Shown here piece by piece: positions 46,367 through 60,867 of a DNA stretch of 64,000 nt; position 1 is the first letter of the stretch, and each line of letters starts with the position of its first letter. Both the position numbers and the translations under genes were made by a program. Below the pieces are notes generated by a model. That model made no database searches. It saw nothing but the letters and a program-made list of their open reading frames with translations, and was not told the DNA's origin. The DNA is from Nostoc favosum CHAB5714 (lineage in GTDB: Bacteria; Cyanobacteriota; Cyanobacteriia; Cyanobacteriales; Nostocaceae): assembly GCF_020829495.1 (NCBI RefSeq), contig NZ_JAIVFQ010000007.1, forward strand, positions 62,001 through 126,000. Direction: 5' to 3'.

Positions 46367-47287
46367 CTAACTTCTAACTCTTGTACAGACGCGATTAATC
46401 GCGTCTCTACTCCTAACTCTTGTACAGACGCGATTAATCGCGTCTCTACTCCTAACTCTTGTACAGACGCGATTAATCGCGTCTCTACTCCTAACTCTTG
46501 TACAGACGCGATTAATCGCGTCTCTACTCCTAACTCTTGGTCTTAAAGCTTGCAGTTGTTTTTCGAGTTCTTCAATGCGCGAGAGCAAAGAACGAATCAC
46601 GGTTGCTTCCATATCAGGTAGCTTTCCATGTTCTAAAGGAGAAAGGCTGGCGTTTTCATTCCGGGAAATAATTCGACCGGGAACTCCCACAACTGTGCGA
46701 TCGCTGGGGACATTCTGCAAGACAATGGAACCTGCACCAATACGGACGCGATCGCCAATTTGCAGATTACCCAAAACTTTCGCACCCGCCCCAATCACTG
46801 CATTTTTTCCCACTGTGGGATGACGCTTACCAGTTTCTTTACCAGTTCCGCCAAGGGTGACGCCTTGGTAAATCAGTGTATAGTCGCCGATGATCGCAGT
46901 TTCGCCAATGACAACGCCCATTCCGTGGTCGATAAACACGCCCTGACCAATCTCTGCACCTGGGTGAATTTCAATTCCCGTCAAAAATCGCCCCAAATGA
47001 GAAATTAAGCGGGGGATAAAACTTACACCTCGACAATGTAACCAGTGAGCAAGACGATGCAAACATAGCGCGTGCAATCCAGGGTAGCAAAACACCACTT
47101 CTAGCCAATTACGTGCTGCTGGGTCGCGCTCAAAAATAATGCGAAAATCACTCAATAATGGCTCTAAAAAAACGCCAGAGAGGAAATTTTTCAGCATGGA
47201 TGTATGGGCAGAATCCTGCGTTTTGGTAGTCTGGCGTAGGCGCAGCCCGTCGTAGACATCGCTAATACTATCTAAAGACTGTTGCAT
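46367..47287 (-). CDS. nifP: Serine O-acetyltransferase NifP (CysE-type) with repeat-derived tail
   Basis: 306 residues. Makes O-acetylserine, the precursor of cysteine for Fe-S cluster sulfur. Left-handed hexapeptide repeats: [75 protein letters not shown]. The normal end is near [11 protein letters not shown]; after it comes [13 protein letters not shown] repeated four times, encoded by 39-bp tandem copies. First gene of the nifVZT cluster and preceded by the conserved nif cis-module. Confidence 0.9.
46388..46522. repeat. Four tandem 39-bp units with GACGCGATTAATCGCGTC palindromes, inside nifP
   Basis: Palindromes begin at 46388, 46427, 46466 and 46505, exactly 39 bp apart; linkers read TCTACTCCTAACTCTTGTACA. 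Being 13 codons long each, the units stay in frame with nifP. The four copies look identical, so amplification is recent. Confidence 0.92.
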
Positions 47288-47998
47288 CGGTAATGTCTAT
47301 CTGGTAAAAGAGCCATCTGCTATTTTTATGCTTATATCAGGCGACTTCCAACTCGATAGAAAACCCAATGCTGATTGGATTTATTGGATTGATTAAGGTT
47401 GTACTCAAACGCCACAACCCCGACTCAAGATAAACTTAAAATTTGTCTTGGGTTAGGGGCGCTAGTATTTAATGATAGGGGTACTAGTATTTTTGGGGTA
47501 GGGTTTAAGAATTTCTGTGTTCGCTACAAGAAACTTTACCTGTAAGCTTTCGCAAATATTTCATCAAAATATTTTGCAATATATTAAGCTGTACTCAGAT
47601 GCACTCAAATATAATTTGGATGAGGCTACAAATCAATATTCTGTATCTCCTATTACTATTAGTATCTTATTATTTGGATAGGCGAATGACAGGTTTCTTT
47701 ATTTTCTTTTAGGATTTCCTGTCTGTATGTATATATACCTTTCAAAATATAGTTATCGCTCATAGTGAATATCTTATTATATAGATGTGTTGAAAAAAAG
47801 CATTTCAATAAGTGCAAATATACCTGCTTGCCGAATTGATAATTACTAAACTGTTTCCTGTTAATAATGACTCATTACTAACTTTGGCTACTTTCATTAT
47901 TTTTTTAATTGTTCTAAATAAACAGCAACCTCTATCATAATGCTGTTACATCTTTGTTAAGAATAGTTACAACTTCTTAACACAAGGAAATTTTTCTT
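47288..47998. other. Divergent nifP / NADH dehydrogenase intergenic region
   Basis: Besides the nif cis-module, the stretch 47515-47998 is AT-rich with no gene seen; it must hold the promoter of the NADH dehydrogenase. No terminator is needed since both genes diverge. Confidence 0.5.
47373..47514 (-). promoter_or_regulatory. nifP upstream cis-module: three 22-bp-phased motifs plus TGAGTACAA block
   Basis: Reading the minus strand toward nifP: AAATTCTTAAACCCTACC at 47514, AAATACTAGTACCCCTA at 47492, AAATACTAGCGCCCCTAACC at 47470, each 22 bp apart. Sixty-three bp on, at 47407, a block starting TGAGTACAACCTTAATCAAT and continuing CCAATAAATCCAATC to about 47373 matches the nifB upstream region closely. 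The ATG is 120 bp further. The same order occurs before nifB (58914-59065). Confidence 0.65.
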
Positions 47999-49725: not shown

Positions 49726-51015
49726 TTAATCTGAAACACTGTATGAATATCCATCTTTTTTGTGAATTGATGTACAAAATCTGTGACTGATGCCAGCAAC
49801 TCTCCCCCCCTTAGTAGCAATATCAAAACTACCTGTTGCCCGACATAAGACACGCCCAACATATTGCCCAACCTTTTTTCCAGAAGTGACAACAGCTTTA
49901 ACAATATCGCCAGTGCTAAAGCCAAAATGGATTTGTTTATTTGTGCGATGACGACAAGGAATCCCGAATTTATCCGTGCCACACATCTGTCTATTACCAT
50001 GACCATTTGCTGTAATTAACAATGACTTAATCCCTTTAATAATCAATTTAGGTGTTGATTTACCAACACACGCTGCATCTATCCAATGCTTCTTTTCTAA
50101 CTTCTGCTGACTTCGATTGAATTTAGTTAATCCGCCGGAGCCTATTTCTACTGGTAGCCCAGTTGCTTTTAAAACTTCCAGCAATGCAAGTCTGGTTGTG
50201 TTTACTGCGGCTGCATCAGCTAATGGTCTTTTTGCTTGTTTGAAGATTTTTTCTAACCTTGTAAGGTCTTTTTTAAGGAAATCTTTGATATCTTTAGTCC
50301 CTTTTTTCGTATTACATTTCTCGCAACTTAAGGTCAAATTTGTAATGGAATTGCTACCCCCTTTGGCTCTAGCATGAATGTGTTCTACCTGTAGTGGAAT
50401 ATCCTTTATCCCACAATATGCACATTGTCTATCCCACTTTTCTAGCAAGTATTCTCTAGTTTCATAACCAGCAAGTGTGCCTTGTTGATACTCTTTACCT
50501 TGGATATCTGGATTACACATTAATTGCATATCAAAGCGTACTAATTCTTGGCTGATAGCTCCAATTGGTGAAAGTCTACATAACCTTTCAACCCATGTCT
50601 TGATATTTTCAATCCGACTTTGTAGACTCGGTACTAACCATCCTTTTGGACGTATTCGATTTAAAAATCTGGGTTGTCTGTAACGAGTTTTACGGTTCCT
50701 TCTGCTACGTCTTAATTGTCTTCTAGAGGTTAAAGCATCTCTAATAGCAGACCCTCTATGCTTTAATTCTGCTGCAAAAACTACTTCCCCAGTATTATCG
50801 TTAACTAATGCAACTCCTGTATATTTTGCACCTGGGTCAAGCTTTAATCTAAATGGTTCTATTGTTGCATCCGGTCTAGATTTTTTGAGAATAATAGTGA
50901 ACGGAAATTGGCAATATATTGCGGCTTTTTTGTTTCTTAGTAATTGTCTAGCTTGTGCTGAGTGGATTGGGTTTAATGGTCTTTTGTCTGTATCCAAAAC
51001 GAATACTTTGCACAT
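49726..51015 (-). CDS. iscB: IscB-type RNA-guided nuclease (RRXRR / HNH)
   Basis: 429 residues from ATG 51015, which has AAAGGAGG 5 nt upstream; a longer frame to 51105 adds repeat-encoded residues. PLMP-type N-terminus (VFVLDTDKRPLNPIHSAQAR), RuvC-I FRLKLDPGAKYTG (Asp60), Arg-rich bridge helix RRQLRRSRRNRKTRYRQ (98-114), RuvC-II SQELVRFDMQ (Glu157), HNH domain with CAYC, VEHIHARAKGG (His212), NLTLSCEKCN (Asn226, Cys231/234), and RuvC-III KKHWIDAACVG (His310, Asp313). All catalytic residues are present. IscB is the ancestor-like relative of Cas9 and is guided by omega-RNA to cut DNA. Confidence 0.92.
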   Translation of the reverse strand: MCKVFVLDTDKRPLNPIHSAQARQLLRNKKAAIYCQFPFTIILKKSRPDATIEPFRLKLDPGAKYTGVALVNDNTGEVVFAAELKHRGSAIRDALTSRRQLRRSRRNRKTRYRQPRFLNRIRPKGWLVPSLQSRIENIKTWVERLCRLSPIGAISQELVRFDMQLMCNPDIQGKEYQQGTLAGYETREYLLEKWDRQCAYCGIKDIPLQVEHIHARAKGGSNSITNLTLSCEKCNTKKGTKDIKDFLKKDLTRLEKIFKQAKRPLADAAAVNTTRLALLEVLKATGLPVEIGSGGLTKFNRSQQKLEKKHWIDAACVGKSTPKLIIKGIKSLLITANGHGNRQMCGTDKFGIPCRHRTNKQIHFGFSTGDIVKAVVTSGKKVGQYVGRVLCRATGSFDIATKGGRVAGISHRFCTSIHKKDGYSYSVSD

Positions 51016-51268
51016 AAGTGCCTCCTTTCGGGTAATGTTAGCTTCTCCCAAGGGGAGACGCTGCGCGAACGACAATGTTAGAGGTCGGTACTTTCCAAAC
51101 AGCACTTCTTTAACCCATTAGAGATGTTTAACTGTTCGGTTTTAGAGCAGAGAACTAGCTACGCATTCTCTGGTAAGTCTTTCAACACTTGCCTCTAACG
51201 TAGTTCGGTTAAGAACTTAGTCTGGTCAGATAAGCTTTTTCAAGCCTCCGGCTTTAGCCGTGGGGTTT
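51016..51268 (-). ncRNA. Omega-RNA (HEARO) region of the iscB element
   Basis: The minus strand immediately upstream of iscB starts with GTCAGAAACCCCACGGCTAA and the hairpin GGCTAAAGCC, then several further inverted segments. This is the typical place and 5' hairpin of IscB omega-RNA. The guide would be the ~16-20 nt just 5' of it (51269-51290), in flanking DNA. The 3' end is uncertain: a dispersed repeat (GTTCGCGCAGCGTCTCCCCT on the minus strand) sits at 51052-51072. Confidence 0.65.
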
Positions 51269-58271: not shown

Positions 58272-58913
58272 AACTAAGATTTTTCACGCTTGCTTTGATT
58301 GTAGCTAAATGACATTCTGACAATTCAGATTATCGGTAAAACCTCTCTCCTAGAAAGAGAGAGACTTTGAATTTTCCCCCTTAGAGCGTCGGGAAGGGGG
58401 TTAGGGGGTTAGGTTTTTCGCTAAGGTTTGTAGTGAGCAATTCCGAAAATTCATTGCGATCGCTCAATCATGTTAGATTATAGTTTGTTGTTTCTCTTAA
58501 ACACAAAATTCGAGACTTTCCTACCCATCTCCTCATTGTGGGAATGAAAAAAAAGAACTGAAAAGTTAAGTTTTTTGAAAATTATGTGCAGCAATACATC
58601 TATTCCCACTAGCTCATATAGCTTACCAGACAAGGCTTAAAGGCATAATTGAACATCATTGTCAAAGAAAAATTAAAAGAATATGAAGTGCATTTTTACC
58701 CTCAAAAAAATGATATGTTAGATACAGAATTCAATTTCGCGCGTTTATGGAGTAGAACAATATAGATTACTTCAGTTTTTCACCCTCAAACCCTTGGCAT
58801 TTCTTGCTTTTGACGCAAATTGAGGGCAATGTGAGTACACATTTAAATAACCAAAACCCAGTTGCAAGTAGATTAAAGTCTTTGCTGGGATTGTGTTGTG
58901 GCTGAGTACAAAG
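58272..58913. other. nifB far-upstream region
   Basis: No gene recognised. A TGAGTACA heptamer-like word occurs at 58832 and 58903, and again in the conserved block at 59031. Confidence 0.45.
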
Positions 58914-59065
58914 AAATCCTGAACCCCTATCTATAAACACTAGAACCCCAACCAAAAAATACTAGAACCCCTACCCGAAAAAAACTTTTTTAATTCTTGT
59001 AATGCTTGAAGAATTAGGGTTCTTATTATTTGAGTACAAACGTAATAAATCCAATAAATTCTATC
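58914..59065 (+). promoter_or_regulatory. nifB upstream cis-module: three phased motifs plus TGAGTACAA block
   Basis: AAATCCTGAACCCCTAT at 58914, AAACACTAGAACCCCAACC at 58935 and AAATACTAGAACCCCTACCC at 58957 are spaced 21 and 22 bp. At 59031, TGAGTACAAACGTAATAAAT followed by CCAATAAATTCTATC matches the block before nifP. The likely ATG is about 385 bp further. CnfR/PatB is the known activator of nifB in heterocystous cyanobacteria; equating this module with its sites is inference. Confidence 0.65.
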
Positions 59066-59415
59066 CTAGAGAGACGCACTGTTTGGCTAGGAGACGGCTG
59101 CTATAAATCTTATATCGCCAATCACCTAACGCTCTGAAACAAACGAAGCGAAAAGTGAGTGGAGGGATGACATAGCACCATGCCTGAAGTGAAGAGAAGT
59201 CGCGGCTGTAAGCACCAATTCTACCCAAGAACCGAACGTTGACACACACCAGCCGAACATCAGATATCTATTGCCTGCCTTACTTGAAAACAAGTCGCCC
59301 GAACCCAAGGGTTTGCAGGCAGTGTGAAAGACGCGACTTCAATTCCTGGGCATAGAGAGTGGCAACAGCATCTCCCACAGTGGCAGCCAAGTCCACCGAC
59401 CTTTTGCGAAACTCA
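59066..59415. other. nifB leader region
   Basis: About 350 bp between the conserved block and the chosen ATG. The plus frame is open from GTG 59359 but has no family match before residue 20. No known riboswitch recognised. Confidence 0.45.
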
Positions 59416-60867
59416 ATGACATCACCGTCTACACGACTCCTCAACTCCCCTGCTACGGAATCGACAACCCAAGCAAAATCCGGTGGTTGCGGCTGCGACA
59501 GCACCAGCAGCGCCACCGTGGAAAGGGACGAAAAGCTCCAAGAACGAATTGCTAAACATCCCTGCTACAGCGAAGACGCTCATCACCACTACGCCCGGAT
59601 GCACGTTGCAGTTGCTCCCGCTTGCAACATTCAATGCAACTATTGCAACCGCAAATATGATTGCGCTAACGAAAGCCGTCCTGGAGTAGTTAGCGAATTG
59701 CTAACACCAGAACAAGCAGCACACAAAGCTTTGGTCATTGGTGGAAAGATTCCCCAAATGACAGTTGTGGGAATTGCCGGCCCTGGCGACCCTTTGGCGA
59801 ACCCAGAAAAAACTTTCCGCACATTTGAGTTGATTGCAGAACAAGCACCAGACATCAAGCTGTGCTTATCAACCAATGGTTTAATGCTGCCAGACTACAT
59901 CGATCGCATTAAACAATTAAATATAGATCACGTTACGATCACCATTAACATGGTAGATCCAGAGATCGGTGCTAAGATTTATCCTTGGGTTCACTACAGA
60001 CGCAAGCGTTACAAGGGCATTGAAGGCGCAAGAATTCTCCACGAAAGACAGATGGAAGGATTGCAAGCCCTGAAAGATGCTGATATCTTGTGCAAAGTTA
60101 ACTCAGTGATGATTCCCGGAATTAATGACCATCACTTAGTCGAAGTGAATCGAGTCATTCGTGAAAAAGGTGCATTCTTGCACAACATCATGCCATTGAT
60201 TTCTGCACCAGAGCATGGCACACACTTCGGTTTAACCGGTCAACGCGGCCCCACACCCAAAGAACTCAAAGAAGTTCAAGACAATTGCTCCGGTAACATG
60301 AAAATGATGCGCCACTGTCGCCAGTGCCGCGCCGATGCAGTAGGATTATTGGGAGAAGATCGCAGCCAGGAATTTTCCAAAGAGAAATTCTTGGAAATGA
60401 CTCCAGAATATGACATGGAGAAACGTCAAGAAGTTCATGACGGTATTGAGAAGTTTAAAGAAGAACTTAAAGTAGCCAAAGACAAGGCGCTTGCCGGCAA
60501 GAAATTTGCCAACAGTCCTAAAGTCCTAGTTGCAGTAGCAACCAAAGGCGGCGGATTGGTTAACCAACACTTCGGTCATGCGAAAGAATTCCAAATTTAC
60601 GAAGTGGGTGGAGACGAAGTTCGCTTTGTCAGTCATCGCAAGATTGACCAATACTGCCAAGGTGGATACGGCGAAGAAGCTTCTTTTGAGCATATTATGA
60701 AAGCGATCGCAGATTGCAAAGCAGTTTTAGTCTCTAAGATTGGTAACTGTCCTCAAGAAAAATTGCAAGAAGCTGGAATACAGACTATTGAAGCTTACGA
60801 CGTGATTGAAAAGGTTGCTTTGGAGTTCTACGAGCAATACATTAAGGAATTAGAGAATAGGGAATAG
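59416..60867 (+). CDS. nifB: Nitrogenase cofactor biosynthesis protein NifB
   Basis: 483 residues from ATG 59416 ([20 protein letters not shown]); the GTG at 59359 adds 19 doubtful residues. Radical-SAM enzyme that builds the 8Fe-9S-C NifB-co. SAM motif [30 protein letters not shown], and additional Cys [15 protein letters not shown]. The C-terminal NifX/NafY-like domain ([20 protein letters not shown], about 375-480) is fused as usual in cyanobacteria. The end ENRE-stop reads into GAATAGGGCATGGGG repeats. Confidence 0.95.

Follow-up and report, generated by a model that had tools for sequence, protein, structure and literature searches.

The closest described relatives of the promoter elements considered here precede nif genes of Leptolyngbya boryana and Anabaena variabilis ATCC 29413. 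The nifB and nifP promoters of L. boryana are activated by CnfR and contain motifs designated I to IX, and in Synechocystis equipped with the nif cluster of this species, Nif proteins are made only once cnfR is added, according to the accessible portions of that report (PMC5943405). In A. variabilis, the regions upstream of nifB1 and nifB2 contain two conserved motifs, one of them TGAGTATA, together with a putative extended -10 (PMC4284476, accessible sections), and the available sections of a further study state that three conserved cis-acting elements found before nifB1, before nifB2, and before the nifB gene of L. boryana are putative CnfR sites, that site loss lowers nifB1 transcription, and that the promoter is an extended -10 without a -35 (PMC8510180).

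The window, by which we mean the entire 64,000-nucleotide stretch of the Nostoc favosum CHAB5714 genome that was analyzed, contains nifB (59359–60867, +; NCBIfam TIGR01290, 678.8 bits; GTG start as listed) and a gene for a CysE-family serine O-acetyltransferase (46367–47287, -; NCBIfam TIGR01172, 247.1 bits against a cut-off of 210.65) that we name nifP by synteny and context; NCBIfam also confirms nifS, nifU, and nifV. Each of the two genes is preceded by an array of repeated units. Based on their sequence, both arrays are very probably instances of the module through which CnfR (PatB) activates cyanobacterial nif promoters, with binding by CnfR as the predicted part of that identification, and they are ordinary members of an already known element type. 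They resemble the L. boryana nifB/nifP element (Tsujimoto 2016, Mol Microbiol 101:411, as described in accessible parts of PMC5943405 and PMC8510180) in lying upstream of both nifB and nifP, in comprising several motifs, and in their predicted activation by CnfR, as judged from published descriptions. Unlike in L. boryana, where a single divergent intergenic region serves both genes, nifP and nifB are approximately 12 kb apart here and each has its own module. The A. variabilis nifB1 and nifB2 promoters share with the window the TGAGTATA-type motif, the second motif, the extended -10 without a -35, and three putative CnfR sites; the accessible portions of their descriptions (PMC4284476, PMC8510180) do not mention a 22-bp phasing, linker classes that differ by one helical turn, or modules preceding alr2522 or cox genes.

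The 12-kb separation of the divergent nifP and nifB genes in the window compares with roughly 1.0–1.6 kb in loci L086, L094, L130, and L138, and the intervening DNA includes a gene for an IscB RNA-guided endonuclease (49726–51105, -; NCBIfam, 448 bits). At its C-terminus (46367–46540, -), NifP ends in roughly four tandem repeats of 13 residues, which give the impression that a repeat array has extended into the coding sequence.

Phased Units Upstream of nifB and nifP

Inspection of both strands places three AAATACTnGnnCCCC-type units before nifB, starting at 58914, 58935, and 58957 (58914–58971, +), and three before nifP, starting at 47514, 47492, and 47470 (47514–47454, -). At nifB, copy 1 (AAATCCTGAACCCC, 58914–58927, +) is degenerate and one base short and is followed by copy 2 (AAACACTAGAACCCC, 58935–58949, +) and copy 3 (AAATACTAGAACCCC, 58957–58971, +); at nifP, copy 1 (47498–47514, -) starts with AAATTCTTAAACCC and is followed by copy 2 (AAATACTAGTACCCCTA, 47476–47492, -) and copy 3 (AAATACTAGCGCCCCTA, 47454–47470, -). 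At each promoter, the second and third units are better preserved than the first: the stretches 47454–47470 (-), 47476–47492 (-), and 58957–58973 match AAATACTAGNNCCCCTA without a mismatch and nifB copy 2 (58935–58951) has two mismatches, while the first copies at 58914 and 47514 are more degenerate, their more than three mismatches placing them outside the match list. Measured between the runs of C, each of the four intervals is 22 bp long.

The initial annotation had located the six copies at these positions, spaced those of nifP by exactly 22 bp, and described the two downstream copies as best conserved, all of which agrees with our inspection of the two strands. Its phasing of 21–22 bp at nifB holds insofar as three phased copies are present, but the apparent 21-bp step arises because one base is missing in copy 1, and the true step on the CCCC runs is 22 bp. 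Similarly, its proposal of a shared operator array stands, and the array recurs in relatives, but the label that it gave to the targets, cofactor-assembly operons, is too narrow because nifS and nifU come after nifB.

The units are more frequent in the window than expected by chance. Allowing up to three mismatches, AAATACTAGNNCCCCTA has seven matches in the window compared with a shuffle mean of 1.86, and none of 100 shuffles reaches seven. The pattern ACTAGNNCCCC occurs four times (mean 0.23 and largest count 2 in 200 first-order Markov simulations), and pairs of it stepped by exactly 22 bp occur twice in the window and in none of the 200 simulations. Over the whole genome, ACTAGNNCCCC is not enriched (37 matches, compared with 32 for the reversed pattern), and thus a single unit is uninformative. 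The combination of box and extended -10 described below, written as TGAGTACN{56,64}TGNTATAA, finds three sites in the genome, which are its three modules, each with an array; because the reversed pattern finds two, the array is needed to recognize modules. Relaxing this pattern adds four matches that lack an array, three in the window and one in the stretch around cnfR. A simpler detector, CCCCN18CCCC, was rejected, with 419 matches in this genome and equally many for the reversed control.

Organization of the Full Module

The layout of the module was read from an alignment on copy 3 of 37 nifB loci together with the remaining two modules of the N. favosum genome. It comprises, in order, a TGAGTACA box, three units, an A/T-rich linker, TTGAGTACA...TAATNAATYCAATAAAT, and an extended -10 TGNTATAA. 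In an alignment of 44 modules, in which L051 was shifted by one unit by hand and from which L054 was excluded, a TGAGTACA box with at most two mismatches is found 53–54 bp before copy 3, directly ahead of copy 1, in 37. In the nifB module, this upstream box is located at 58903–58910 (+), the downstream TTGAGTACA box with its conserved TAATAAATCCAATAAAT at 59030–59059 (+), 73 bp after copy 3 (the long linker class), and the extended -10 TGCTATAAA at 59099–59107 (+), 69 bp after the box start. In the nifP module, the upstream TGAGTACA box has three mismatches, the downstream box TTGAGTACA...TAATCAATCCAATAAAT occupies 47379–47408 (-), 62 bp after copy 3 (the short class), and the extended -10 TGATATAAG occupies 47331–47339 (-), also 69 bp after the box start. 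A pattern check for TTGAC was negative in both window modules, so that neither has a -35. The initial annotation did not mention the TGAGTACA boxes on either flank, the extended -10, the constancy of the geometry, or the further target operons.

The transcription start of nifB would lie near 59114, and with this predicted start the downstream box of nifB would end at about -76. In 2016, Tsujimoto, Kamiya and Fujita reportedly placed the element approximately 76 bp ahead of the points at which transcription begins.

Conservation among Cyanobacteria

NifB is present in 42 of 148 genomes sampled from the order, with 43 matches. A score of 30 or more, exceeding every reversed-sequence control (maximum 29.0), is reached by 37 of the 43 nifB upstream regions on a profile that was trained on 37 of the same nifB loci, and these scores are therefore not independent. 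Five further loci have degenerate arrays with scores of 8.1–17.5, which fall inside the control range, and the last, L054, has only 265 bp of upstream sequence and is too short to judge. In many genomes, the first of the three units is weak. An exact gapped pattern of the module matches in 33 of the 42 NifB-bearing genomes, missing nine, and in one of the 106 that lack NifB (G083, where the matching letters are unlike the units); the reversed pattern matches in two genomes.

A stricter pattern searched over named genomes returned at least 114 stretches, all of those listed being cyanobacterial, with at least 122 sites: 56 before nifB, 32 before nifP (two of which, L098 and L112, rest on weak matches of 37–38% identity), 19 before an operon of the alr2522 type, two before cox genes, and two before cnfR. 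Among the remaining listed sites, eight are cut by the edge of the locus and three uncut sites lack such a target (L088, L123 on the + strand, and L179 on the - strand). The order sample and the named-genome sample overlap, as is evident from contigs of identical length, and the two sets of counts are not independent. The initial annotation held that its reading would fall if the phased motif were missing from other nifB and nifP upstream regions; in the relatives surveyed here, the motif is found there. At L088 (5533–5670, -), the pattern match precedes an ORF with a ParB_N domain and has no relation to nif, cox, or cnfR.

Geometry and Linker Classes

Activator sites in bacterial promoters can form phased arrays in which the sites are spaced by whole helical turns and whole-turn insertions are tolerated. 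The modules described here have the same whole-turn spacing; they differ in that the presumed activator is an iron-sulfur XRE protein and the promoter lacks a -35. In 60 modules selected by unit pairs alone, three units are found in 49 and two in 11 (as set by the script threshold), and the steps between units are 22 bp in 94 cases, 23 bp in 10, and 21 bp in five. The distance from array to downstream box is 61–63 bp in 30 of 58 modules and 71–75 bp in 28, with none at 64–70 bp and the two class means 10.6 bp apart; the two modules excluded from this count have a poor box and lengths of 61 and 62 bp. Likewise, among the at least 122 sites of the named-genome scan, which allowed 60–76 bp, 71 have array-to-box distances of 60–64 bp, 51 have distances of 70–74 bp, and none falls at 65–69 bp. 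The distance from box to extended -10 is 67–70 bp in 42 of the 44 aligned modules and in 56 of the 58. As printed, L067 (50 bp) and L073 (40 bp) lie outside both classes, and they fit (at 73 and 61 bp) only after the third unit chosen by the script, which scores negatively in the profile, is dropped.

Repeated jumps of one helical turn, with no half-turn jump seen, are what a same-face requirement predicts, and this geometry suggests that the parts of the module must stay on one side of the DNA helix. The earlier guess that two-turn spacing would put the bound proteins on one face is thereby backed by separate evidence, namely the linker classes that differ by one turn. We consider it unlikely that the two linker classes were instead inherited from a few ancient insertions or deletions having little to do with helical phase. 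This explanation draws on the fact that nifB sites are mostly long and nifP sites mostly short, so that the rows are not independent, and on the quick construction of the NifB tree, in which 20 of 54 inner branches are open; it is opposed by the absence of intermediate lengths in the 58 modules and the at least 122 listed sites, by the occurrence of both classes within one genus code (L043 at 73 bp, L045 at 62 bp) and within the N. favosum genome itself (nifB 73 bp, nifP 62 bp, third module 62 bp), and by the number of class changes, at least seven on the quick NifB tree, which has 62 rows, and at least three on a NifP tree with 29 rows. Both trees were built from 80 of the at least 114 loci, and the numbers of changes are approximate because of weak tree branches.

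CnfR as the Predicted Activator

The N. favosum genome encodes a CnfR of 553 amino acids (G000:C11:112058–113716, -) with Fer4 and HTH_3 domains above the Pfam cut-offs and Fer4_9 and Fer4_7 below theirs. A CnfR match at E ≤ 1e-60 is found in all 42 NifB-bearing genomes (partial in G056) and also in 11 of the 106 that lack NifB, several of these matches being partial. The arrays fit a CnfR/PatB cis-element in their position upstream of nifB and nifP, here and in relatives; in the presence in the same genome of CnfR, with its 4Fe-4S motifs and C-terminal XRE helix–turn–helix; in their occurrence with nif genes (33 of 42 genomes with NifB, one of 106 without); and in the combination of TGAGTACA boxes of the TGAGTATA type with TGCTATAAA or TGATATAAG and no -35, as compared with the legend of figure 11 in the accessible part of PMC4284476. 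The suggestion of a CnfR/PatB site made in the initial annotation is thus supported by the co-occurrence of CnfR and NifB and by the available sections of PMC8510180 and PMC5943405, with binding itself as the predicted step.

The TGAGTACA box and the C-rich unit differ in sequence, so two proteins may be involved, and in principle another regulator such as NtcA, HetR, NrrA, or a further factor could bind the units while CnfR acts indirectly or at the TGAGTACA boxes only. We regard this as quite improbable. The module also occurs in genera that are not known to form heterocysts. The DIF1 site TCCGGA does not occur in the two window modules, and the NtcA site GTAN8TAC, named in the accessible part of PMC4284476, is absent from all modules scanned, that is, from the two in the window and from all 60 modules of 240 bp. 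The dependence of Nif proteins on added cnfR in Synechocystis, as given in the available sections of PMC5943405, also argues against this possibility. That the array is left over from a mobile element or is an iteron-like repeat that plays no part in regulation, as 22-bp phased repeats and the IscB gene between nifP and nifB might suggest, is hardly credible given that position, copy number (three in 49 of 60 modules, two in 11), and distance to the extended -10 have been maintained in many genera and that each of the three genomic matches to the box and -10 pattern has an array.

For activation by CnfR, we posit the following mechanism. Under nitrogen starvation combined with low oxygen, CnfR, with its ferredoxin-like iron-sulfur motifs and XRE helix–turn–helix, would fill all three units of 22 bp, lined up next to each other along a single DNA face, and the TTGAGTACA box would also be filled, by CnfR or by a partner. 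The bound complex could then hold RNA polymerase at the promoter, a contact that we propose to be possible because the box lies 67–70 bp before an extended -10 lacking a -35. The linker would vary only by a whole helical turn, since the array and the box would have to point in the same direction.

Predicted Targets beyond nif

The third module of the N. favosum genome (C11:123424–123498; locus L003) is a full module and precedes six ORFs whose sole Pfam match is a luciferase-like monooxygenase. The gene order in this region is cnfR; COX1 and COX3; a cupin; an ArsC-family protein; a PALP-family enzyme (cysK-like); and the six ORFs. By synteny, judged solely from gene order, the six-ORF operon corresponds to alr2522–alr2527 of Nostoc PCC 7120. 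In the accessible portions of the respective reports, strong induction of the patB–alr2524 region is described by 21 h into nitrogen step-down (PMC3141674), alr2522–alr2527 ("unknown proteins, luciferase-alpha subunit") are down in a cse mutant (PMC7065334), and asr2523 and alr2524 are included in a SigC table (PMC4390870) and in a table of nitrogen-fixation genes (PMC2821919). A module precedes the operon of the alr2522 type in all eight sampled genomes of the family to which N. favosum belongs; the arrays of G058 and G077 are weak (pair scores of 29.8 and 24.8), and the box of the G128 module has three mismatches. Outside the family, G067 alone of eight genomes with an alr2524 homolog has a module ahead of it within the DNA examined; none was found within the 3.6–4.2 kb examined for the alr2524-like genes of G139, G091, G027, G068, and G129 or within the approximately 1.5 kb examined for those of G049 and G114. 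At L061 (7863–11759), a full module is followed by small, mostly Pfam-less ORFs (140, 93, 103, 121, and 124 amino acids) and a luciferase-like monooxygenase, and genes of the hyp type (HypD, HypB/CobW, and AIRS domains) lie beyond this operon on the opposite strand.

Other modules precede cox genes and cnfR. In L276, the module is followed on one strand by an alr2522-like ORF, a coxB-like ORF, coxA, coxC, and genes resembling alr2523, alr2524, and alr2525; in L278 and L279, it is followed by a 4Fe-4S ferredoxin ORF, which from its resemblance we take to be fdxB, and then coxB and coxA; and in L280 it precedes an alr2523-like ORF. Between the module and cnfR lies an ORF of 56 amino acids (MKRFSLRLTEAE...) in L281 (618–788, +), L098 (5712–5882, +), and L120 (3332–3502, -), which in L281 matches the ribbon–helix–helix family RHH_1 of Pfam (21.9 bits, cut-off 20.5). 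The linker is 62 bp in all seven of these loci. The arrays before cnfR are weak, with pair scores of 28.0 and 24.1 and that of L098 under the script cut of 15, and in the N. favosum genome no module was found before cnfR or the cox genes in the 39 kb examined.

Based on these sequence comparisons, we somewhat favor the hypothesis that CnfR directly commands genes beyond nif through an array in helical phase with a promoter-proximal box: the operon of the alr2522–alr2527 type in heterocyst formers and, in other cyanobacteria, the cox2 oxidase (behind a ferredoxin gene, or together with genes resembling alr2522, alr2523, and alr2524) and, in some, the ribbon–helix–helix ORF and cnfR itself, which would constitute autoactivation. 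Among the papers listed in searches of the open literature, none was seen to report the one-turn linker classes or the added CnfR targets; because key subscription papers lie outside a search of this scope, we do not claim priority for either.

CnfR is the activator employed when nif clusters are transferred into other organisms, according to the accessible portions of PMC5943405, and the geometry described here provides candidate design rules for nif promoters: three 22-bp units, a linker of 62 or 73 bp, and 68–69 bp to the -10. The modules beyond nif predict a wider direct CnfR regulon, in which an orphan operon would be tied to nitrogen fixation and a protective oxidase placed on the same switch. 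If this hypothesis is correct, one low-oxygen switch would control nitrogenase, the oxygen-consuming oxidase that accompanies it, and the sensor.
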